The translations under genes and the position numbers were made by a program. From assembly GCF_003797945.1 (NCBI RefSeq), contig NZ_RKKU01000014.1:31631-95630 (forward strand): a DNA stretch of 64,000 nucleotides, in the 5' to 3' direction. The notes beneath the pieces are model-generated. The model saw only the letters and a list, made by a program, of their open reading frames with translations. It did no database searches and had not been told where the DNA came from. The DNA is from Pseudomonas neustonica (lineage in GTDB: Bacteria; Pseudomonadota; Gammaproteobacteria; Pseudomonadales; Pseudomonadaceae). Positions 3,257-64,000 of this stretch are shown in pieces. How positions within the stretch are numbered: the stretch's first letter is position 1; each line of letters opens with the position of its first letter.

Positions 3257-4654
3257 TCAGAACAGCCGATTGAGGCCGTCCAAGGCAGCTACCCGATAGG
3301 CTTCAGCCATGGTCGGGTAGTTGAAGGTGGTATTAACAAAGTAGTTGATGCTGTTGGCTTCGCCCTTCTGGCTCATGATTGCCTGACCAATGTGCACAAT
3401 CTCTGATGCCTGGTCGCCAAAACAGTGAATACCTAACACCTCCAGCGTGTCTCTATTGAAGAGAATCTTCAGCATACCTACTGGCTCACCACTGATCTGG
3501 GCGCGCGCCATACTCTTGAAAAAGGCCTGACCAATTTCGTAGGGTACTTTCTCCGCCGTTAACTCTTGTTCAGTTTTGCCCAAAGAGCTGATTTCCGGGA
3601 TGGTATAAATCCCAGTAGGCACATCATCAACAAAACGCCATGCATCGTTGCTGACAATATTGCCGGCAGCAGAGCGACCCTGGTCAAAAGCCGCACTCGC
3701 CAAGCTGGGCCAGCCGATAACATCACCAACCGCGTAAATATTAGGTACTGCCGTACGGTAGTTCTCGTCAACACTAAGCTGGCCACGACCATTTGGATGT
3801 AGACCGATATTCTCAAGACCCAGGCTGTCGGTGTTGCCGGTACGACCGTTACACCAGAGCAACGCATCAGCTTTGAGCTTTTTGCCAGACTTGAGGTGTA
3901 ACACCACACCCCGGTTATCGGTGCCTTCTATTTTTTCGTATTCTTCGTTATGCCTAATCAGCACGCTGCTGTTACGCAGGTGATAACTCAATGCATCGGA
4001 TATCTCGTCATCCAGAAAGCTAAGTAGCCGCTCACGGTTGTCGATCAAATCCACCTTTACACCCAAACCGCAAAAAATCGACGCGTATTCGCAGCCAATA
4101 ACCCCTGCCCCATAGATGATCAGGGTACGAGGAGTGTGGTTCAAGCGCAGAATGGTATCGCTATCATAGATACGTGGATGACCAAAGTTTACGTCGGCGG
4201 GACGATAAGGGCGTGAGCCAGTGGCGACAATAACCTCTTTGGCGATCAGCTTTTCTACTACACCGGTGTTGTTGACCAGTTCGATTGTATGCTCATCGGC
4301 AAAGCTACCCTTACCGAAGAATACGTCCACTCGGTTGCGCGCGTAATAGCTGGTGCGCGATGCAACCTGCTTGGCCATGACTTTTTCCGCACTTTTCAAC
4401 ACATCCGGAAAGGGGAACCAGCGGGGATCGCCAATCGCGCGAAACATGGGATTGGTGTTGAACTGAATGATCTGCTTGACCGAATAACGCAACGCTTTTG
4501 ACGGGATAGTGCCCAGGTGAGTGCAATTACCACCAACTTCCTTGCGCTCTTCCACAACGGCCACTTTACGACCGTGCTTGGCTGCATTCATCGCAGCCCC
4601 TTCACCCGCAGGGCCTGAGCCCAGCACCACTACATCGTAGTTATATACAGCCAT
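3257..4654 (-). CDS. sthA: Soluble pyridine nucleotide transhydrogenase
   Basis: This FAD enzyme interconverts NADPH+NAD+ and NADP+ + NADH, balancing the two pools. The 465 residues show an N-terminal FAD dinucleotide fold ([21 protein letters not shown]), an NAD(P) fold ([20 protein letters not shown]), the [16 protein letters not shown] flavin motif, and a C-terminal dimerisation domain. The disulfide position reads [15 protein letters not shown]: the second cysteine of lipoamide-dehydrogenase-type CxxxxC is threonine, which distinguishes SthA from its disulfide relatives. The length is that of the family. It converges on the GDPD gene with only 14 bases between them. Confidence 0.96.
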
Positions 4655-4709
4655 TCATTCAGTTCCTTGTATCACGCGTAAAGAGGATGCCACAGACAGC
4701 AAACCGACC

Positions 4710-4952
4710 CTAGTCGACCTTGGTGGCATCTCGGGCAAGGTCAAACTCCTGGCTGCGCGGTTCTACACCGGCATTGACGGTCGACTCTTCGCACTTGGTG
4801 ACATCACCACCACAAATACCACAGGACTTATCCAAGCCAGTAGCACCTATACCACCGCAGGAACCAGCGATCGGCTTTCGACCCATCATCACGCCAACGG
4901 CCATACCGGCAACAATCAGCAGCATCAAGGGAAACACCAGAAGCCAAACCAT
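4710..4952 (-). CDS. nqrM: NqrM, Na+-NQR maturation protein
   Basis: This is a small membrane-anchored protein needed to assemble Na+-translocating NADH:quinone reductase, probably for delivering iron to the membrane cluster between NqrD and NqrE. The 80 residues begin with one transmembrane helix (MVWLLVFPLMLLIVAGMAVGVMM). Next comes a cysteine-rich stretch (SCGGIGATGLDKSCGICGGDVTKCEE), the expected NqrM metal-binding signature. It is the last gene of the nqr operon, three bases after apbE, and that placement strongly supports the call. Confidence 0.9.
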   Translation of the reverse strand: MVWLLVFPLMLLIVAGMAVGVMMGRKPIAGSCGGIGATGLDKSCGICGGDVTKCEESTVNAGVEPRSQEFDLARDATKVD

Positions 4953-4955
4953 GGT

Positions 4956-5978
4956 TTACTCCTCGCTCTTTGCAAGAGCATTAAATTGAGGAGTGCCTTT
5001 GGACACAAAAGCCTCCCCTTTGCGAATGACGAAAAACGCCGGAATTTCATGCGCAACAGCATAATCCCAGCCAGTATCCTCGCCCATGATCATCAGTAGC
5101 GTCGACAGACCATCTGCCTCAGCCGCCGATTCATCAAGGACCGTGACCGCAGCGAGTTTATGCATAACCGGGTGCCCGGAACGGGCATCAAAAGTATGTG
5201 AAAACCGCTGACCATTCACTTCATAATAGTTGCGATAATCACCCGAGGTGGAAACGCCTTCGCCATCCAGCGCCAGAATCATCTGCGCGACACGCTCATC
5301 ATCTCGCGGCTCTTCGATGGCAATGCGCCAAGGGCGATTACCAGGCTTATGGCCTGCGGCCTTTAGCTCACCCGTTATTTCCACCATATAATTGGTGACA
5401 TCGTAGGTCGCCAGACGTTCCACGACACGATCAACCATGTAACCGGCGCCGACGCTGCTAATGTCTAGCGTAAGCGCGACGTCCTTACAGAGTTGATTGT
5501 TTGCGTCTATGTGCAGGTGCTGCTGACCGACCTCCGCCATTACTTGCTGCAAATGCTCGGGATCAGGAACCTGGTGTTGTTCGCCACCATGGAATCCCCA
5601 GAGCTTAAGCAATGGTGCCACCGTAATATCGAAGGAGCCCTCACTGTCGCTGTAGAGATGATCGGACAAGCGGACCATATCCAATACCGACTCTGGCATT
5701 GGCATGCAGGTATTAGCTGCAGCCGCATTGAACCGAGCCAGGTCCGAATCGTGGCGCCAGTTTGATGCCTCGCTATCAAAGCGAGCAAACATAGCTTCGA
5801 TCTCTTCCTGAAGCACTTCGGGTTCGGGCGACTGTTCTGACGGAACCCACTTGATCGAATAGGTGCTACCCATGGTAGCGCCGTACATCTCGGAAACCGG
5901 GTCAACAGAATTGAAACAGCCCGTTAGGGCTGTTGCCAGAGCAACAGCTATAACGGGCCAGGTAACGCAACGGGGCAT
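4956..5978 (-). CDS. apbE: ApbE, FMN transferase lipoprotein
   Basis: This periplasmic flavin transferase attaches FMN from FAD to threonines of NqrB and NqrC. From the ATG at 5978 the product has 340 residues. Its lipoprotein signal (MPRCVTWPVIAVALATALTGC) ends in a lipobox with Cys21. The ApbE domain follows: MYGATMGSTYSIKW, LDISSVGAGYMVDRV, HTFDARSGHP, and AAEADGLSTLLMIMG. A longer reading frame reaches back to 6023 inside nqrF, but the 5978 start gives a proper signal peptide and lies just downstream of the nqrF stop. Position between nqrF and nqrM matches its role. Confidence 0.94.
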   Translation of the reverse strand: MPRCVTWPVIAVALATALTGCFNSVDPVSEMYGATMGSTYSIKWVPSEQSPEPEVLQEEIEAMFARFDSEASNWRHDSDLARFNAAAANTCMPMPESVLDMVRLSDHLYSDSEGSFDITVAPLLKLWGFHGGEQHQVPDPEHLQQVMAEVGQQHLHIDANNQLCKDVALTLDISSVGAGYMVDRVVERLATYDVTNYMVEITGELKAAGHKPGNRPWRIAIEEPRDDERVAQMILALDGEGVSTSGDYRNYYEVNGQRFSHTFDARSGHPVMHKLAAVTVLDESAAEADGLSTLLMIMGEDTGWDYAVAHEIPAFFVIRKGEAFVSKGTPQFNALAKSEE

Positions 5979-5979
5979 A

Positions 5980-7203
5980 TTAACCGCCAAAGTCATCAAG
6001 CAGAATATTCTCAGGTTCAACACCCAGATCCTGCAGCATTTTGACCACGGATGCGTTCATCATAGGCGGCCCACACATATAGAACTCGCAGTCTTCCGGA
6101 GCGGGGTGCTCCTTCAGATAGTTCTCAAGCAATACATTGTGAATGAAGCCCGTAGGACCGTCCCAGTTGTCTTCCGGCAAGGGATCAGACAGCGCCAAAT
6201 GCCACTCGAAATTCGGGTTGGCTTCAGCCAGCTGGTCATACTCATCAACGTAGAAAGCCTCACGCAAGGAGCGCGCGCCGTACCAGAATGAGATCTTGCG
6301 GGTGGAATGCAGACGTTTGAGCTGATCAAAAATGTGCGAGCGCATAGGCGCCATACCCGCGCCACCACCGATGAAGACCATCTCTGCATCGGTATCCTTG
6401 GCAAAAAACTCACCGAAGGGTCCATACACAGTGACCTTATCGCCAGGCTTAAGGCTAAAGACCCAGGAAGACATCTGACCCGGTGGCAAATCGTCACGAC
6501 CAGGGGGCGGTGACGCCACACGGATGTTGAATTTAACCAGACCGCGCTCTTCCGGATAGTTAGCCATCGAGTAGGCACGAATAACCGTTTCATCAACCTT
6601 TGAAACATAGCGCCAAAGATCAAACTTGTCCCAGTCACCGCGGAATTCCGGCTGAATATCGAAATCCTTGTAGTTCACGGTGTGCGGTGGGCACTCCAGC
6701 TGTACATAGCCACCGGCGCGGAAGTCGACGTTTTCACCCTCGGGCAGCTTCAGCGTTAGCTCTTTGATGAAAGTCGCGACGTTGGGATTTGACTCGACCG
6801 TACACTCCCATTTCTTAACGCCAAATACCTCTTCAGGCACTTCGATCTTCATATCCTGCTTGACCGGAGTCTGGCAGGACAGGCGCCACCCTTCCTTGGC
6901 TTCGCGCTTGGTAAAGTGCGACTCCTCAGTAGGCAACATCTCACCGCCGCCGCTTTCGACGATACATTTGCACTGGGCACATGTACCGCCGCCGCCACAG
7001 GCGGACGACAGGAAAATACCATTGGCAGACAGGGTGTTCAGCAGTTTCGAGCCAGCCGCCACAGTCACTGTACGCTCACCATTAACCTCAATGGTGACGT
7101 CGCCACTGCTTACCAGCTTGGAACGAGCAATCAGAATGACGGCAACCAGCGACAACACGATGGCTGTAAACATCCCGACGCCCAGAAAAATTTCCATGTT
7201 CAT
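5980..7203 (-). CDS. nqrF: NqrF, NADH-oxidising subunit of Na+-NQR
   Basis: This subunit takes electrons from NADH and passes them via FAD and a [2Fe-2S] cluster into the Na+-pumping complex. It has 407 residues: an N-terminal membrane anchor (about residues 3-26), and a ferredoxin domain with [12 protein letters not shown] plus a later cysteine (LSCQT). A ferredoxin-reductase module follows, with the FAD motif RAYSMANYP, the NAD motif [12 protein letters not shown], and the C-terminal [13 protein letters not shown] and LDDFGG. The length and order are those of the family. Sixteen bases separate it from nqrE. Confidence 0.97.
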
Positions 7204-7219
7204 CAGTTACAGCTCCTCT

Positions 7220-7831
7220 TTACAGTTGCACGCCGGAAAAGGACATGAAACCCAGTGACATCAAGCCAACAGTGATGAAGGTGATGCCCAGGCCACGAAG
7301 CCCATCAGGTACATCGCTGTACTTGAGCTTTTCCCGGATACCCGCCAAGGCGATGATGGCCAGCGCCCAGCCGATACCGGCACCAGCGCCATAGACCACA
7401 CTCTCACCGAATGCGTAATCACGCTCTACCATGAACAGCGATGCCCCCATGATGGCGCAGTTTACGGTGATCAGCGGCAAAAACACGCCCAGTGCGTTGT
7501 ATAGCGCAGGTACGAATTTATCGAGCAGCATTTCAAGAATCTGCACGATCGCAGCGATCACACCAATGTAACTAAGCAAGCCAAGGAAGCTCAGATCCAC
7601 ATTCGGCAGGCCTGCCCAGGCAAGCGCGCCATCTTTCAGCAGGTAGGTGTAAATCAGGTTGTTGGCCGGGGTAGTAATAGCCAGTACAACAACCACCGCT
7701 ACACCCAGACCAATGGCCGTCTGCACCTTCTTTGAGATGGCGATGAAGGTACACATCCCCAGAAAGAAGGCCAACGCCATGTTTTCAACGAAGATCGCCC
7801 GAACCAGCAGGCTTATGTAATGTTCAATCAT
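7220..7831 (-). CDS. nqrE: NqrE, membrane subunit of Na+-NQR
   Basis: This 203-residue integral membrane subunit is homologous to RnfA. Six hydrophobic helices can be traced. It contains [13 protein letters not shown] near the N-terminus and [17 protein letters not shown] in the middle; in this family such a cysteine belongs to the half-membrane pair that, together with NqrD, holds an iron centre. It overlaps nothing and lies 3 bases after nqrD. Assignment to Nqr rather than Rnf rests on the surrounding operon with nqrA, nqrF and apbE. Confidence 0.96.
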
Positions 7832-7834
7832 GGC

Positions 7835-8506
7835 TTACATAGCCTCCTTCATGGCACGAGTCTGCGGCGCCATTTTGAATTCCGGCGCTTCAACCTGATC
7901 GGTCTTCCAGGAACGCAGTCCCCAGATAATCAAACCGATGATAAAGAACGCCGAGGGTGGCAGCAGCAACAAACCATTGGGCTGATACCAGCCGCCCGCG
8001 TTAACAACCGGCAGGATTTCGATACCAAACAGGCTACCCGCACCCAGCAATTCACGCACGGTTGCAACGCAGATCAGGATGAAGCTGTAACCCAGGCCAT
8101 TACCAATACCGTCAAGGAAACTCATGTGCGGTGGATTCTGCATGGCGAAGGCTTCAGCGCGGCCCATCACAATACAGTTGGTAATGATCAAGCCAACGAA
8201 AACCGACAGCTGCTTGCTGATGCTGTAGGCATAGGCCTTCAGCACCTGATCTACCACGATTACCAGTGATGCAATAATCACCATCTGCACGATCATGCGA
8301 ATCGAGCTGGGGATTTGGTTGCGGACCACAGAGATAAACAGGTTTGACAGCGCGGTTACCGAGGTCAAAGCGATACACATAACCAGGGTAACGTTAAGAC
8401 TGGTGGTGACCGCCAGCGCAGAGCAGATACCCAGTATCTGCAGCGCAATCGGGTTATTACTGAAAATGGGATCAAAGAGCACCTGTTTGGCGCTTGCCTT
8501 AGCCAT
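7835..8506 (-). CDS. nqrD: NqrD, membrane subunit of Na+-NQR
   Basis: This 223-residue integral membrane protein is homologous to RnfE and pairs with NqrE in the Na+ channel of the complex. It begins with a short hydrophilic part ([34 protein letters not shown]), followed by six predicted helices. [20 protein letters not shown] carries the conserved cysteine and the family loop. Two bases separate its start from the upstream nqrC stop, consistent with one tightly packed transcript. Confidence 0.96.
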
Positions 8507-8508
8507 GA

Positions 8509-9288
8509 TTATGCCTCCCCTGCGCGAAGATGATCGAGGAACTCGCCAAAGCCGTCTTGACCCAGCCAGAAGCGCACCAGGTTTTCTACGCCCCGACTGG
8601 TCAGGGTCGCACCGGCCAATGCATCAACCTGATGCTCGGCATTCGGACTATTGCTGTCTACGCCGCCCTTGATGACGCTGATATCAACGTCGCCAGACTC
8701 GTCATAAACCACTTTGCCAGTCCACTGTTTCTTCCAGTTCGGGTTGTCTACCTCACCGCCCAGACCGGGGGTCTCGGCGTGTTGGTAAAAGCCCAGACCA
8801 ACGACGGTCTTCAGATCGCTTTCCAGCGCCATGAAACCGTACAGGGTAGACCAGAGACCATAACCGTGAATCGGCAGGATCAGCGTTTCGATCTCGCCCT
8901 GCTCGTCTTCAACCACATATACCGTGGAATAGTACGACTGACGACGAATACTGGCGATATCAGCTTCAGGATCCAGACGCTCAGAGGTCGCCGGGTCCTT
9001 GGATGCTTTCTGCTGATCGAAGGTCAGCGGATCCCTGGCATCGCTAAATTCGCCAGTACGCAGATCAACCAGACGCGGAGTGATCTGCTTGAACTGATCC
9101 TGAACACTGACACCTTCCTTATATAGGCCGGCGATCTGCAAAATGTTGCGCTGCTTATCCTGCAACTGGTTGGTTACCTGAACTGGCTTAAGTGCTACCG
9201 CAGCGGCAGACACCACGACAGAGCAAACCAGGCAGACCAGAAGCGCAACCGTAAGAGTGCGGAGAACGGATTCTTTCTTACTGGACAT
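8509..9288 (-). CDS. nqrC: NqrC, FMN-carrying subunit of Na+-NQR
   Basis: This subunit holds a covalent FMN on the periplasmic side. From the ATG at 9288 the product has 259 residues: one N-terminal transmembrane helix ([23 protein letters not shown]) and a periplasmic FMN-binding domain containing [25 protein letters not shown] and [18 protein letters not shown]. The threonine in GATLT is the expected flavinylation residue, modified by ApbE. The reading frame extends 24 codons further upstream into nqrB, but MSSKKESV is the usual NqrC start. It overlaps the nqrB end by 11 bases. Confidence 0.95.
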
Positions 9289-10492
9289 TGCGTGCAAGCC
9301 TCCGTTTGATATTGGCCTGGACCACAAAGTGGTCGATGAGCGGAGCGAACAGGTTGGCAAACAGGATTGCCAGCATCATCCCTTCAGGGAAGGCCGGGTT
9401 GACCACCCGAATGAGGATAACCATCAAACCTATCAACGCGCCAAACATCCACTTGCCGGTATTGGTCATCGACGCAGACACCGGATCAGTCGCCATGAAA
9501 ATCATACCGAAGGCAAAACCGCCCACCACAAGATGCCAATACCAGGGCACCGAGAACATCGGATTGGTATCCGAACCGATAGCGTTGAACAGCAGGCTGG
9601 TAGCAACCATACCAATCATCACACCAGCAACGATCCGCCAGTTGGCGATTTTGGTCATCAGCAGCACTGCGCCGCCAATGAAAATGGCCAGCGTGGAGAC
9701 CTCACCCATTGAACCCTGAATGTTGCCGTAGAAGGCATCCCACCAGGTAATGCCCTGCGCAACGACCTGATCGATACCGCCTGACGCCGCCATGCTCAGC
9801 GCGGTCGCGCCAGCAAAACCATCGACTGACGTCCATACTGCGTCACCCGACATCTGCGCCGGGTAGGCGAAGAACAGGAACGCTCGGCCAGTCAGCGCCG
9901 GGTTAAGGAAGTTCTTACCCGTACCGCCGAAGACTTCCTTACCGATAACCACACCAAAACTGATGCCGAGCGCCACCTGCCACAGCGGAATGCTGGGCGG
10001 TACGATCAGGGCGAACAGGATGGAGGTAACGAAAAAGCCTTCATTGACTTCGTGCTTACGCACGGATGCAAAGACAACTTCCCAGAAGCCGCCGACCAGA
10101 AAGGTCACTGCATACACTGGCAGAAAGTAAGCCGCGCCGTGGATCAGGTTGTCCCACAGGCTGTCGGGGCTAAAGCCGGCAAACAGCGAGATCAGCGCAA
10201 TACGCCAGTTATCCTGTGCCGCCAGCAAATCTGCATTGCCTGCATAGATGCTGTTGGCCTGATAACCAATGTTGTACATACCGAAGAAAATGACCGGAAA
10301 GGTACAAAGCCATACGGTAATCATCATGCGCTTGAGGTCGAGACCATCTCGCACGTGAGCAGTCGTCTTGGTGACGCTGCCTGGACGATAGAAGAAGGTA
10401 TCAACGGCTTCGTACAGGGCATACCACTTTTCGTGCTTGCCGCCCTTTTCGAAGTTGTGTTCTATTTTGTCGAGGAATGCACGTACACCCAT
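9278..10492 (-). CDS. nqrB: NqrB, quinone-reactive and FMN subunit of Na+-NQR
   Basis: This 404-residue polytopic membrane subunit carries a covalent FMN and takes part in ubiquinone reduction and Na+ movement. The hydrophilic N-terminus ([35 protein letters not shown]) is characteristic. The FMN attachment segment reads [13 protein letters not shown], with threonine in the GAT motif. [19 protein letters not shown] and [19 protein letters not shown] are also family hallmarks. About ten hydrophobic helices can be counted. It lies 3 bases after nqrA and overlaps nqrC. Confidence 0.97.
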
Positions 10493-10495
10493 GAC

Positions 10496-11842
<1,347 letters not shown>

Positions 11843-11974
11843 CTAATCACTAGTTTGGAATCTTTAAGGGCGGGCTGCCCGTGCGGAGCACAACAAGCTC
11901 TGGCGGAATGGCTCTTGGCAACAGACACTAAATCAGGGCGAGGTAGCAGCAAACCCCCATCAAAAATCCCGCTA

Positions 11975-11980
11975 AGTATA
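11975..11980 (-). promoter_or_regulatory. Candidate -10 element for nqr operon
   Basis: Read on the minus strand this is TATACT, a good match to a sigma-70 -10 hexamer, about 140 bases before the nqrA start. I see no convincing -35 hexamer at the right spacing, so the assignment is weak. The 11834-12126 gap holds no gene. Confidence 0.25.
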
Positions 11981-12126
11981 AAGTTCCTGCCCCACCATTG
12001 CTACTCGGCCCCTTGGTTTTTTCGGGTTTTTAATAGCCTGCATTGATGAAATCTATGACCAAGCACACCGCGACCACCCTACTCTGCTCTAGACTAGCGT
12101 ATCCCAATACAAAATGGAGAAACCGC

Positions 12127-12687
12127 ATGCGACCACAAGCCCTGCTGCTTGCCGCCCTTCTGCTACCAGCCACAGCCTATGCTGACAGCGCCCCTAACAG
12201 CCAGAGCGAATTCACTGAGAGCGTGGCATTGGAAAACAGTAACCAGGTATTACCGTTGCGCAATCAACATCTGCTTGAATACCTGTTTGTGGATGTATAC
12301 AGCGCTGCGCTCTACGCGCCAGACGACGCCGAGCTCAACCGGCTATTGCCTGGCGATGCGCCACTGCGCCTGGAGCTCTCCTATTACCGGTCCATTAAAC
12401 GCCAAGACGTGATAAAAGCCGCCTGGACAGCACTGAAAAGACAATACGATGAAAACGCGTTGGCACAACTAAAACCCAATATTGACGAGTTACATTCAAC
12501 CTTAAGCGATATCAGCGACGGCGACCGTTACAGCTTGACCAGAACAACCACAGGCAAGCTGATACTTCGTCACAACGGAAAGGCAACGTTCGAGTCCGAC
12601 GACCGACAACTGGCCGAAGCCTATCTGGGGATATGGCTAAACCCAAACGGCCTGTCTGATGAGCTTCGCACCGCACTACTGAACTGA
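12127..12687 (+). CDS. Chalcone-isomerase-like secreted protein
   Basis: This 186-residue protein begins with a signal peptide (MRPQALLLAALLLPATAYA). The mature part shows features of the bacterial chalcone isomerase-like family: a parental FVDVYSAALYAP segment near residue 60, LRLELSYYRSIKRQDVIKAAW, and a C-terminal FESDDRQLAEAYLGIWLNPNGLSDELRTALL close to those of plant CHI folds. The role of these bacterial proteins is not established; isomerase activity should not be assumed. I use the ATG at 12127 because a TGGAGA box precedes it and a signal peptide follows. The frame also opens further upstream at 12043. It is transcribed divergently from nqr. Confidence 0.75.
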   Translation: MRPQALLLAALLLPATAYADSAPNSQSEFTESVALENSNQVLPLRNQHLLEYLFVDVYSAALYAPDDAELNRLLPGDAPLRLELSYYRSIKRQDVIKAAWTALKRQYDENALAQLKPNIDELHSTLSDISDGDRYSLTRTTTGKLILRHNGKATFESDDRQLAEAYLGIWLNPNGLSDELRTALLN

Positions 12688-12708
12688 AGTCAGCGAGCAG
12701 CAGGCAAC

Positions 12709-12735
12709 AAAAAAGGCGCCGCAGCGCCTTTTTTG
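12709..12735. terminator. Bidirectional rho-independent terminator
   Basis: An A-run, then a GGCGC/GCGCC stem with a short CGCA loop, then a T-run. It lies between two convergent genes (the chalcone-isomerase-like gene and the GAPDH gene) and can serve both. Confidence 0.85.
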
Positions 12736-12749
12736 CATTACCCAGTCAA

Positions 12750-14204
12750 TCAGGCCGGGAAAGCCGGCGGATTAACGTGAGCCATATCTTCCAGAATGCG
12801 AACGACCTGACAGCTATAGCCAAACTCGTTGTCATACCACACGTAAAGAATGACGCGATTGTCATTACAGATAGTGGCTTCAGCATCGACCACGCCAGCA
12901 TGACGCGAACCAACAAAGTCGGATGACACCACCTCTACCGAGTTGGTGAAATCGATTTGCTTGTGCAAGTCAGAGTGCAGCGCCATATCGCGCAAGTATT
13001 CATTCACCTCGTCACGATTGGTCGACTTTTCCAGATTCAGGTTAAGAATGGCCATAGAGACGTTGGGGGTAGGCACGCGAATCGCGTTACCGCTCAATTT
13101 GCCTTCAAGCTCAGGCAGCGCCTTGGCAACGGCCTTGGCTGCACCGGTTTCAGTGATAACCATGTTCAACGCAGCACTACGGCCACGACGGTTACCCTTG
13201 TGGAAGTTATCGATCAGGTTCTGGTCATTGGTGTAAGAGTGAACAGTCTCTACGTGGCCATTAACGATACCGTACTTGTCATTGATTGCCTTGAGTACCG
13301 GCACAATGGCATTGGTTGTACAGGACGCAGCAGACACAATTTTATCTTCGGGCGTGATGGCCGCGTGATTGATACCGTGAACGATATTCTTCAGATCACC
13401 CTTACCTGGCGCCGTCAGCACAACCTGGCTCGCGCCCTTGCACTGAAGGTGCTGTGACAGACCAGCTTCATCGCGCCACACACCGGTGTTATCAACGATG
13501 AGCGCATCTTCAATACCATAGCTGGTGTAGTCGATGCTGGCCGGGTCGCTAGCGTAAATAACCTGAATCTGATTGCCGTTGGCCGTCAGCGTATTATTCT
13601 CTTCGTCAATGGTGATAGTGCCCTGGAAAGAACCATGCACGGAGTCACGACGCAGCAGACTAGCACGCTTTGCAAGATCGTTTTCGGCACCCTTACGCAC
13701 AACAATGGCGCGCAGCCGCAGACCATCACCTACACCCGCTTTTTCGATCAGAATACGCGCCAACAGACGACCAATCCGGCCGAAACCGTAAAGCACGACA
13801 TCACGACCCTGGCGACGCTCGCCGGTATGACCGATAACACTGCTCAACTCGGCACGCAGGAAGGCATCCAGATCCTCACCACCACTCTCGCGGAACTTGT
13901 TTACCAGGCGCGCCAGGTCAATTGAGGCAGGCCCCAGCTCGAGATCCAGCAACGCGCTAACCACCGGAAAGGTGTCGTGCACTGACAGCTCGGTGTCGTC
14001 GATCTGGCGAGCGAAGCGATGCGACTTCAGCAAACTGATAACCGAGCGATTAACCAGGCCACGACCATAGATGGACGTCACCACGTTATGTTCACGGTAC
14101 AGGCGACCGATCAGGGGAATCATGGCTTCAGCGGTCGCTTCGCGATCCGTCCAGCTTTCCAGACACTGCTCGAATTGGGCTTGAGTCACGGCTTTACCTT
14201 CCAA
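12750..14204 (-). CDS. Glyceraldehyde-3-phosphate dehydrogenase, N-terminally extended
   Basis: This 484-residue protein is about 140 residues longer than ordinary GAPDH (about 335). The extra part is a helical N-terminal region (residues 1-130) of unknown role. The dehydrogenase core then begins with the NAD fold VVLYGFGRIGRLLARIL. It has the catalytic cysteine in SAASCTTNAIVPVLKAI, the HSYTNDQNLIDNFHK loop, the phosphate-binding RRGRSAALNMVITETGAAKAV and the C-terminal WYDNEFGYSCQVVRIL. It corresponds to the long GAPDH located before mfd in Pseudomonas. Direction (glycolytic or gluconeogenic) and NAD/NADP preference cannot be read from the sequence. Confidence 0.9.
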   Translation of the reverse strand: MEGKAVTQAQFEQCLESWTDREATAEAMIPLIGRLYREHNVVTSIYGRGLVNRSVISLLKSHRFARQIDDTELSVHDTFPVVSALLDLELGPASIDLARLVNKFRESGGEDLDAFLRAELSSVIGHTGERRQGRDVVLYGFGRIGRLLARILIEKAGVGDGLRLRAIVVRKGAENDLAKRASLLRRDSVHGSFQGTITIDEENNTLTANGNQIQVIYASDPASIDYTSYGIEDALIVDNTGVWRDEAGLSQHLQCKGASQVVLTAPGKGDLKNIVHGINHAAITPEDKIVSAASCTTNAIVPVLKAINDKYGIVNGHVETVHSYTNDQNLIDNFHKGNRRGRSAALNMVITETGAAKAVAKALPELEGKLSGNAIRVPTPNVSMAILNLNLEKSTNRDEVNEYLRDMALHSDLHKQIDFTNSVEVVSSDFVGSRHAGVVDAEATICNDNRVILYVWYDNEFGYSCQVVRILEDMAHVNPPAFPA

Positions 14205-14386
14205 GTCTTGATAACTAAAGGGCGCATATTATGCTTTCCATGACGCCTTGAGGCAATCACCAGCCCAAAAACAACCAGAGAATGAGCACAGCGTGCCTGA
14301 CAGCGGTACACTTACCCACCTCTTAAACCGGTCTGTCTCGATGTATCGAAGCAGCACCTGCAACATGACCACCATGAGCTTATTGC

Positions 14387-60959: not shown

Positions 60960-61718
60960 TTACTCGGCGGCTGCTGGGGCGCCTTTCCACAGCGCGAACC
61001 CAGCTGCCTTTTCTATCGCGGCCAGCCGCTCCTCATGTCCTGCCAACTCATCGGCATTGGCACGCAGCACCTGCAAGCCAGCGCGCATTGCCGGGTCCAG
61101 TCGACGGATACTGCTCGCCGAATCACTACCGTCGTCATTGCCTTGGCCGTTGGCGGCGAGTGATAACGCCGTTTGGCCACCGGTCATCAGCAGATAAACG
61201 TCAGCCAGAATTTCCGCATCCAGCAAGGCGCCGTGCAGGTCACGCTGCGAGTTATCTACCCCGTAACGTTTACAGAGCGCATCCAGACTGTTGCGCTGTC
61301 CCGGATGCTTTTCCCGCGCCATCAACAGCGTATCCAGCACACTGCAATGCTCGGCTACCAGACCATGCCCTTTGCTCAGGCGAACCAGTTCGCTATCAAT
61401 AAACCCCACGTCAAAGGCGGCATTATGAATCACCAATCGGGCGCCGCTGATGAAGTTCATAAAATCATCTGCGATATCGCCAAACAGGGGTTTGTCTGCG
61501 AGAAACTCGCTGGAGATGCCGTGAACCGCCTGCGCACCCTCATCAATCTCGCGCTGCGGGTTGATATAGACATGGTAATGCCGGCCCGTTAGGCGTCGAT
61601 CAATCAGCTCAACGCAGCCGATCTCGATAATCCTGTGACCTTCTTTGTGTTCGATACCCGTTGTTTCAGTATCCAGCACTACGTCCCTGTTACCTGAATT
61701 TTGTAATCTTATAGCCAT
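60960..61718 (-). CDS. dnaQ: DnaQ, DNA polymerase III epsilon proofreading subunit, with replaced N-terminus
   Basis: This 3'-5' exonuclease proofreads DNA polymerase III. The 252 residues contain exonuclease motifs VVLDTETTGIEHKEGHRIIEIGCVEL (D,E), LVIHNAAFDVGFIDSEL and HGALLDAEILADVYLL, and the QTALSL clamp-binding motif. The first ten residues (MAIRLQNSGN) are longer than the usual few before VVLDTETTG. They come from AT-rich codons (ATA, AGA, TTA) unlike the rest, and the start has an ACGAGG box within the mobile DNA. I infer that integration replaced the original start with sequence carried by the element. Confidence 0.95.
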   Translation of the reverse strand: MAIRLQNSGNRDVVLDTETTGIEHKEGHRIIEIGCVELIDRRLTGRHYHVYINPQREIDEGAQAVHGISSEFLADKPLFGDIADDFMNFISGARLVIHNAAFDVGFIDSELVRLSKGHGLVAEHCSVLDTLLMAREKHPGQRNSLDALCKRYGVDNSQRDLHGALLDAEILADVYLLMTGGQTALSLAANGQGNDDGSDSASSIRRLDPAMRAGLQVLRANADELAGHEERLAAIEKAAGFALWKGAPAAAE

Positions 61719-61836
61719 GCAAAAACCTCGTAACCAACTAATTTACAAAAGATAATCTATAAAAATAACTCTAAATTGACGCATAAGAAATGTAACCTAG
61801 ACTTCTACTAAAACCACACTAGACTAAAATGTAAAC
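61685..61836. other. Probable island end (attachment region) between dnaQ and the recombinase
   Basis: This AT-rich stretch starts inside the first codons of dnaQ. It holds repeated short motifs: TGTAA(CC) near 61688 (inverted), 61729 and 61791; TAGACT near 61798 and 61820; and AAATGTAA near 61788 and 61827. Such repeats are typical of recombinase arm sites. A TTGACG at 61776 could be a -35. The exact crossover point cannot be fixed without the other end of the element. Confidence 0.6.
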
Positions 61837-63039
61837 ATGAATTACAAGGTTAAACATTTCGTTACCTACGATGGTGAGCGCTTCTCGCAGCTTTACGATG
61901 CAGAAGAGGGTGGCTTTCCATTGTACTACCCCACGAGTTACATCGCCCGCTCGGTGCGCTCCCGCGCCACTCATAAAACGCAGCAAGTACACCTAGAAGC
62001 GGTCAAGCGGGTGTGTGAGTGGGAGGCTCAACAAAATATCAGACTCGCCCTACGTTTCCCAAGCAGACAATTCCTGCAACAGTTCGAAATCGACAGCTTG
62101 GTAAAACACCTAGTTAGTAGCAGAAGTGGCCGCGATTGGGACGTCATATGTCGCGATAAAGCGAACACGTACATTGCATATGCAGCGAGGTACTTGCGAT
62201 GGCTGGCATGTGAAGTAATCGGCGAGATAGGAGCAGATGTTAAAGCAGCTATCGATGAGCAGCACCATTCCCTAATATCAGCAGTCGCACGTAAGAGTGG
62301 TTCCTCGTCAGCCAGCAAGCAGCGCATTTCTGTAATGCAACTACCGAATGAGACAACGCAAGCACTGTTTGAGTTATTCAAAAACCCACTCAATGGGGTT
62401 AAAAAAGAAGGCGATCAGGGACCCCGCATGCGAAACGTCGTCATGTTGCGAATCCTGTATGAGACAGGCATGCGTCGTGGCGAATTGTTAAGTTTAAAGC
62501 TAGCAAATTTTGTCGAAGCGATCGCCGGTGAAAGCGCTAGATTACGGATCGAGCGCAACCACCACGACAAGCTCGACTCAAGGGTTCACCAGCCGGTTGC
62601 GAAGACCCTTGGGCGCATCGTCAACATATCAGCTGAGACAGAGCAGCAACTTATTCGCTATCGAGATAAATGGCGACCCAGCGACGGCAGTGACTTCTTA
62701 TTTTTGAACCACCGCGGCGGACGCTTTCAAAGTAACCCCGTAACAGAAACTGGATTCAACTCTGCGCTGGACAAACTGAAGGAAGCCTTTCCCGCGCTGG
62801 AACCGTTACACCCTCACCTTCTACGCCACGATTGGAACTACAGGTTTTCCAAGCTGGCGGACAAAGAGGGATTGGAGTTTGAAACCGAACGCACCATGCG
62901 AGAAATGTTGATGGGCTGGAAACCCAATTCAAACATGTCTTTGCTCTACAACCAACGGCACATACAAGAAAGGGTCAACGACATCGGTAGGGAGCTCGCA
63001 TCAGACACAATGCACAGAGGGCAAAAAAAATGGCCATGA
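61837..63039 (+). CDS. Tyrosine recombinase, possible GmtY (integration module)
   Basis: A 400-residue tyrosine recombinase with all catalytic residues: the first arginine about residue 211 (ETGMRRGELLSLKLANF), a lysine region KTLGRIVNI, HLLRH about 326 (HPHLLRHDWNYRF), tryptophan in MLMGWKPNS and tyrosine near 370 (SLLYNQRH). An N-terminal SAM-like domain precedes. Codon use and AT content differ from the host genes. The gene directly adjoins dnaQ and overlaps the next recombinase gene by 10 bases. The two-gene order and family resemblance recall gamma-mobile-trio modules (GmtY then GmtZ), an inference. No clear ribosome binding site precedes the ATG. Confidence 0.88.
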   Translation: MNYKVKHFVTYDGERFSQLYDAEEGGFPLYYPTSYIARSVRSRATHKTQQVHLEAVKRVCEWEAQQNIRLALRFPSRQFLQQFEIDSLVKHLVSSRSGRDWDVICRDKANTYIAYAARYLRWLACEVIGEIGADVKAAIDEQHHSLISAVARKSGSSSASKQRISVMQLPNETTQALFELFKNPLNGVKKEGDQGPRMRNVVMLRILYETGMRRGELLSLKLANFVEAIAGESARLRIERNHHDKLDSRVHQPVAKTLGRIVNISAETEQQLIRYRDKWRPSDGSDFLFLNHRGGRFQSNPVTETGFNSALDKLKEAFPALEPLHPHLLRHDWNYRFSKLADKEGLEFETERTMREMLMGWKPNSNMSLLYNQRHIQERVNDIGRELASDTMHRGQKKWP

Positions 63040-63977
63040 TCCTACCGTACGAAAACAACCCCAACTCAGATTTCGAACTTCAAAGAACGACGCGACCACA
63101 ACGGCCCTCACCAGATGTAGTTTGGGAGCAGGATGCGTTTTGCTACATTGGGTACGGTGCTGTGCATATGGCTGAGGGGCTATCTAAACTAGACCTTGCC
63201 CATAAAGAGTCATTCAAGCAAGCGGCCCTTGCTTTCTCAATAAAAGGCTCTTACACCAGAACCGCGATTATTTCCCTAATGTACGCAATTAACAAAACAC
63301 TGAAACGCACCACCGCGAGGACGCTTGACGAAACATGGATTTCTCAAGCAGTAGAATCACCAACGGTCGCAGTCAATATAAAATCAATTAGAAATTTTTT
63401 TATTTTTTGGAAAGCACAAGATCCTCTTGCGATCAGCAATGAGGCACTAGAACTGCTCATAAAGCTTCGAATCCCTCGAAACAAAAATAGGAACGTGCTA
63501 TCAGACGATCCTGAAAAAAGCTGGCTGAGTGATGAGGAGTACGAAGCGGTACTCGCTAGCGTTTGGCGGAACTACGAGGAGGGCCAATTCTCAGCCAGCC
63601 GAACCCTACTAGCTTTACTGTCAATGCAGTATGCTCGCCGCCCTGTACAGCTCGCAAATTTGAAGATCAAGGACTTCAGGATCGCAGCAAAAGGTGATAT
63701 TTCGGGCTTAACCGGGCCGTTAGTGAGCTTTCCTGGCGCCAAAGACTTGAATGCAGAGACCGGCTTTCGCGACAGTAGGTTCGAGCACCATCCCTTACCA
63801 AGCCATCTGTGGAGCTTGTTCGAGATTCACCGCAAAGAGATTCGAGCAATGATTGAACTACATCTTGGTTCTCGGCGGCGGCAAAAACTGAGTGCAACAC
63901 CTGACCTTTCCGGTACGGTGCTGCCCTATGTCTTATTCCGAACTCAGCGTTGCAGAGCGTGCCACCATTCAAGTTAG
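63030..63977 (+). pseudogene. Second tyrosine-recombinase-like gene (possible GmtZ), interrupted
   Basis: The open frame gives 315 residues. It has an N-terminal helical region, then TLLALLSMQYARRPVQLANLKIKDF about residue 195-215, holding the first catalytic arginine of the tyrosine-recombinase fold. Full homologues of this type are considerably longer, with the HxxR and tyrosine motifs near the C-terminus; these are missing. From about 63888 the frame runs into the mobile element listed next and ends at 63977. The start overlaps the upstream gene by 10 bases with an AGAGGG box. Recombination function is probably lost. Confidence 0.72.
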
Positions 63978-64000
63978 TCATGCCCAAGGCCTCAGCTTGC
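63889..64000 (+). mobile_element. IS30-family-like insertion, left end (partial)
   Basis: From 63928 a plus-strand frame different from the recombinase frame reads MSYSELSVAERATIQVSHAQ and runs to the edge; this is the start of many IS30-family transposases (ELS-ERATIQ pattern). The preceding bases from about 63889 (TGAGTGCAACACC) are a plausible left end, but I could not identify the inverted repeat with certainty because the right end is outside the window. The insertion breaks the second recombinase gene. Confidence 0.6.

Follow-up and report, generated by a model that had tools for sequence, protein, structure and literature searches.

The dnaQ locus

The window analysed here, meaning the whole stretch of 64,000 nucleotides from Pseudomonas neustonica, contains dnaQ, encoding the epsilon subunit of DNA polymerase III, at 60960..61718 on the minus strand, and ginA, encoding a tyrosine recombinase of 400 amino acids, at 61837..63039 on the plus strand (Pfam PF00589, 43.5 bits). 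The two genes are divergent, the ATG of ginA at 61837 lying 118 bases from that of dnaQ, and the AT-rich gap of 118 bp between them (61719..61836) is presumed, from its sequence and composition, to be the site of both promoters.

The dnaQ gene is chimeric, with residues 1–12 of its product being element-borne and the rest belonging to the host, as judged from NCBIfam matches and from relatives. Both PRK05711 (346.8 bits) and dnaQ_proteo (308.5 bits) match above their cut-offs from residue 10–11 onwards, and the alignment of relatives' DnaQ to the window DnaQ begins at about residue 10. The N-terminus in the window reads MAIRLQNSGNRD-VVLDTETTG. Thirty-six genomes of the same genus were searched, 35 of them gave a strong dnaQ match, and 29 of the loci were fetched (six were not); all 29 have the native N-terminus MRE-(V/I)VLDTETTG, with 27 reading MREVV and two MREIV. 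In these loci the dnaQ ATG either overlaps the rnhA stop by 8 nt (21/29) or follows it after 2–3 nt (8/29), and because of this overlap or close adjacency dnaQ is presumably read together with rnhA under normal circumstances. The window genome has no other close dnaQ, its two additional matches being at 26–29% identity.

The additional sequence is a leader comprising a start codon and 12 codons (61683..61718, minus strand), with which the attachment arm on the ginA side ends. A leader or upstream sequence of this type is present in none of the 29 same-genus loci, and the idea of a native variant was rejected on that count. The preliminary description of this DNA had characterised the front of DnaQ as about ten residues longer than usual, AT-rich and made of rare codons, with the ribosome binding site also in AT-rich DNA, and most of this agrees with what was found. 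The window DnaQ is 9 residues longer than the native MRE form, the leader and gap together (61683–61836) have 30.5% G+C, where most 1-kb bins of the window have about 55%, and a Shine-Dalgarno-like ACGAGG (61726..61731, minus strand), which may serve the new start, lies 7 bases upstream of the dnaQ ATG within this AT-rich DNA. The claim about codons stands only in part: in a comparison with the 14,759 codons of 29 long window ORFs, ATA, AGA, TTA, TCA and AGG are rarer choices (9, 4, 3, 11 and 4% among synonyms, respectively), but GCT, CAA, AAT, GGT and AAC are ordinary ones (20, 28, 43, 36 and 57%). The notion that a longer N-terminus is necessarily harmful to the enzyme was dropped, as residue 6 of the epsilon chain with the best solved match, which we take to be the E. 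coli enzyme, aligns to residue 10 of the chimera, making the chimera just 4 residues longer.

Both ends of the insertion

The sole rnhA match of the genome (RNase_H) is on contig C9 and not beside dnaQ. There, the rnhA stop is followed by ATGCGTGAAGTAGT, which is the native dnaQ start, and then by foreign sequence. Since C9 carries rnhA, the severed native start and foreign DNA, the genome has both ends of an insertion at dnaQ codons 4–6. The preliminary description had proposed that rnhA was missing from beside dnaQ, that a recombinase gene began nearby in the opposite direction, and that a mobile element sat in the dnaQ start region and restored a start; these proposals are borne out by the two junctions, the second of them next to rnhA where a matching element end is found, as well as by the further genomes and the travelling leader described below. 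It had also named two findings that would speak against it, the same N-terminus and upstream sequence in close relatives and the lack of a matching second end; both were looked for, and neither was found.

The window GinA shares 71% identity with the GinA of Vreelandella sedimenti. Downstream of ginA lies the 5' part of an interrupted ginB (63030..63887, plus strand; NF041502 integrase_1, 83.2 bits, below its cut-off), followed by the end of an insertion sequence (63888..64000, plus strand) with an inverted repeat at 63888–63900 and the start of a transposase-like ORF at 63928 (HTH_38, 23.5 bits, below its cut-off of 27). The window lies on contig C6, whose last base is window position 64000. 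A tblastn search with the Vreelandella ginB, ginC and ginD placed the 3' portion of ginB, along with ginC and ginD, on contig C37 (69% identity for ginC, 76% for ginD), and the 13-bp inverted repeat is common to the window end and the C37 end, where ginB is split. The order of contigs C6, C37 and C9 is inferred.

Other genes were noted on these contigs. Positions 4354–12745 of the C37 locus encode a phosphonate-type ABC transporter (PhnC, a substrate-binding protein and PhnE) and, by best solved match, a phosphite dehydrogenase, all lying between two identical IS4-family transposase genes; this region is likely cargo of the element, and its layout resembles that of a composite transposon for using phosphite. 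A Fic-domain gene (C37 3732–4271) adjoins the first IS4-type transposase. At the other element end, C9 begins in what appears by eye to be the tail of an IS3-type transposase, and an ORF with a HATPase_c_4 domain is present within positions 1–1248.

Recurrence in other genomes

The same dnaQ insertion was found in 14 further genomes, five from Halomonadaceae and nine from Pseudomonadaceae. One relative, V. sedimenti (Halomonadaceae), came from scanning genome contigs; its dnaQ begins MSRHFSGYRT-VILDTETTG and is followed by a divergent ginA, ginB, ginC and ginD, and the right end of the element is on another contig, together with rnhA and ATGCGTCAGGTGATC. A GinA profile built from 21 GinA sequences was positive in 5/275 Halomonadaceae genomes, all five at dnaQ, and in 13/398 Pseudomonadaceae genomes, ten at dnaQ (the window genome included) and three beside ssb, where the SSB domain was confirmed. 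The 15 carriers counted here leave out the ssb sites (G876, G893 and G841) as well as the additional element copies of G889 and G877, and a second, weaker rnhA match in G889 (L121, 46% identity) was not used. The order and class samples (1/390 and 1/369 positive, respectively) returned only the window genome, so this element lineage appears rare outside Pseudomonadaceae and Halomonadaceae in these samples. Among viral contigs, 65 stretches matched a pattern, with no GinA relative among them.

The arrangement is consistent across carriers: in 15/15 the ginA end faces dnaQ, and the far end borders rnhA and the native start. In 13 of the 15, a single contig carries the element with rnhA on one side and dnaQ on the other, at a distance of roughly 18 to 74 kb; the two genes are on different contigs in the window genome and V. 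sedimenti. ginA is close to dnaQ in 13 carriers, and lies about 0.6 kb away in G993 and about 2 kb away in G758. Among non-carriers, dnaQ starts MRQ(I/V)(I/V)LDTETTG in all 19 Halomonadaceae examined, and its motif codons fall ≤200 bases after rnhA in 11 of the 12 Pseudomonadaceae examined.

In a midpoint-rooted GinA tree (rows G913 and G993 being on long branches), the window GinA groups with the five Halomonadaceae copies with support of 98/99, at 70–75% identity, compared with 39–60% identity to dnaQ-site copies of its own family. This grouping suggests that the element may have been transferred between families. Given the three ssb-side elements among 18 GinA-positive genomes, and two further copies elsewhere, the lineage is not bound to dnaQ.

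A leader that travels with the element

An in-frame start lies 5, 10, 11 or 12 codons ahead of the junction in 15/15 carriers (14 ATG, one TTG). The leaders are alike within element lineages, with MSRHFSGYRT and its variants in Halomonadaceae and MTVYK/MTIYK types in several Pseudomonadaceae. A single 33-nt leader, without any difference in sequence, precedes dnaQ in three genomes (G877, G875 and G889); G889 also has it in front of a cupin gene (product identified by Cupin_2), and G877 carries it on a plasmid. Where the cupin gene is interrupted, its severed native frame is GEPIRSVVL and the new frame is MTIYKSNTDRVVVLETNDS. Because the leader that starts dnaQ also starts, in the same genome, a cupin gene at a second site, the leader is DNA of the element; one module is in frame ahead of two different genes and would be translated as the front of both. 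In a shuffle test on nine of the 15 upstream regions, picked as distinct leaders, the chance of an in-frame start within 14 codons was 0.29–0.72 each, with a product of about 3e-4 if independent, but this is weak evidence since viable insertions alone are seen.

In the second dnaQ-type copy of G889 (contig C1, about 1463000–1481400), ginA is split between two frames. Stutzerimonas stutzeri plasmid p1_PM101005 has a copy of the same element (about 8880–14371), again with the 33-nt leader and a broken ginA, at a third site, whose sequence GTAGTGCTGGAC resembles dnaQ. Plasmids could carry these elements between hosts.

The proposed crossover core

The proposed crossover region is the 6-bp core GTGCTG (Val-Leu) of attL at 61674..61679 on the minus strand, preceded by GTA at 61680–61682. 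The core was defined by column-by-column comparison of attL and attR in the 15 carriers (attR of G717 being read by eye), and corresponds to the Val/Ile and Leu codons directly before the catalytic Asp codon; GTGCTG is native in 6/29 same-genus loci. The two ends share a 9-nt GTNNTNCTN-type stretch that includes the core, imperfect in most copies, and it is from this sequence that the exchange is proposed. Beside dnaQ (attL), the core codes for V/I-L in 15/15 carriers, and on the rnhA side (attR) in 6/15, the other nine reading VS, MI, FP, LF, PL, RV, ML, VP and AS. The second G889 copy has GTTCTG in attL and GTGCTG in attR, the latter being the core of the dnaQ copy in that genome.

A rule of this kind is described for SEs, with a 6-bp footprint in which the donor core goes to attR and the target core to attL (accessible part of PMC10214605), and a 6-nt staggered cut has been proposed for GInts (excerpts of PMC5385486). 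The footprint seen here is SE-like in the same sense, which is a likeness and not a mark of membership. Under such a scheme, the Gin proteins would integrate the element into dnaQ by a 6-nt staggered exchange, the core left beside dnaQ would be that of the host, and the foreign 6 bp would be laid on the severed rnhA side, so that the VL-DTE motif would be spared whatever core the incoming circle carries. The V/I-L core beside dnaQ could instead reflect the survival of working genes only.

Nature of the element and alternative explanations

The gene order, the small fourth protein, the 6-nt core, the ssb-side kin and the hosts of gene 2 and 3 relatives point to a GInt. The ginABCD order, of three integrase-like genes and a small fourth, is complete in G444, G717, G690, G704 and G700, and in the window genome (G000) the gin genes are split over C6 and C37 with ginB interrupted. 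GInt/Tn6571-type islands, in the portion of PMC5385486 available, likewise have ginABCD at one end, are site-specific, use a 6-nt exchange and insert at the 5' end of a gene, with an ABC transporter gene, ssb and a ribonucleotide reductase gene as published targets; here, the same dnaQ codons are occupied in 15/18 GinA-positive genomes. The same excerpts differ from the present case in describing neither a dnaQ target nor an element-borne start codon and N-terminal leader.

Several recombinase-like proteins accompanied by a small protein are also found in SE/Tn554 elements (excerpts of PMC10214605 and PMC9345347), and it is unlikely, if not negligibly so, that the element is an SE rather than a GInt, in which case its effect on dnaQ would be identical. 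An R, HxxR and Y pattern is retained in the third protein, and the H of HxxR is missing from the second, which fits SEs, where the published large third protein is catalytic and the second is not according to PMC10214605, and the one-sided 6-bp footprint is as in SEs. By eye, in an alignment of four, the third protein has a candidate arginine (MRISE / SRGGE), and the GInt criterion is a GinC without the first catalytic arginine. Against an SE stand the matches of the GinA profile to three elements beside ssb, a published GInt site (a likeness by site), and the occurrence of gene 2 and gene 3 relatives on Rhizobium, Azospirillum and Pasteurella plasmids, where SEs were not found according to PMC10214605. 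That paper also gives SE/Tn554 elements another gene order and other protein clusters, setting them apart by description. An artefact of assembly has next to no probability: the draft has 77 contigs and its pieces break at insertion sequences, but the dnaQ–ginA junction is internal to C6, the rnhA junction is internal to C9, and equivalent junctions lie on one contig in 13/15 carriers. It is also quite improbable that dnaQ translation starts within the gene itself, with the core GTG as one possible site, such that the leader is not made. A GTG is indeed among the core codons in the window and no promoter match faces dnaQ, but ACGAGG lies 7 bases before the element-borne ATG in a gap that is otherwise non-coding, and an in-frame start is kept in 15/15 carriers with different leaders, although survivors only are seen.

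The assembled DNA directly shows the two junctions, dnaQ parted from rnhA, a new start that is in frame, the genes ginABCD and the recurrence in 15 genomes. We consider it highly probable (about 92%) that a GInt-type island splits dnaQ at codons 4–6, likely via its own Gin recombinases, that its ginA-side end joins an in-frame start and 12-codon leader to dnaQ, and that element-borne signals are predicted to drive both transcription and translation of dnaQ.

Expression of dnaQ and wider meaning

An outward promoter in the ginA–dnaQ gap would stand in for the transcription and the translational coupling that rnhA provides. This would be a further likeness to GInts, as the one in P. stutzeri DSM 4166 is reported to drive transcription outward into the gene that it interrupts (excerpts of PMC5385486). 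A sigma-70 scan of the window gap gave no match toward dnaQ and one toward ginA, a number about as in shuffles, and a promoter scan of the Vreelandella gap found none. By analogy with such published cases, it is likely that dnaQ is expressed from the element, perhaps at another level, but the promoter-scan null and the solved epsilon N-terminus, just 4 residues shorter, count against a strong effect. Control of the mutation rate by the element is less likely in this strain because an insertion sequence splits ginB. More speculatively, and with odds well against it, this could be a GInt lineage specialised on the proofreader, whose arm would be a portable module of ribosome binding site, start and N-terminal peptide, whose one-sided 6-bp footprint would protect the catalytic motif, and whose promoter back to back with ginA would tie the host mutation rate to element activity.

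An element that appears to rebuild the front of the proofreader gene, repeatedly and in at least two bacterial families, raises the direct question of whether parasitic DNA tunes the mutation rate of its host. It would also mean that one stretch of DNA can serve both as attachment site and as coding sequence, and the one-sided 6-bp footprint points to a simple explanation of how the conserved motif of the target stays intact.

No report of dnaQ as such a target was found in the literature searched, with subscription papers and supplementary files outside the search, and the GInt and SE papers retrieved make no mention of dnaQ. Parallels do exist in IMEVchUSA3 and other dusA islands, where insertion at the 5' end gives a new promoter, start and N-terminus, and where a lacZ fusion to a dusA-type island showed expression at a reduced level (accessible parts of PMC8409611 and PMC4482086). 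Those are, however, single-integrase elements of other families, and their target is a tRNA-modifying enzyme and not a proofreader. SXT in prfC is a further parallel for the dnaQ case (excerpts of PMC8409611 and PMC2791158), although it is a conjugative element with another recombinase and another target. Finally, TGTAAAC/TGTAACC motifs occur near both ends of the element (window 61791 and 61830; C9 1266, 1328 and 1426) and also in Vreelandella, and are possible candidates for recombinase or GinD binding sites.
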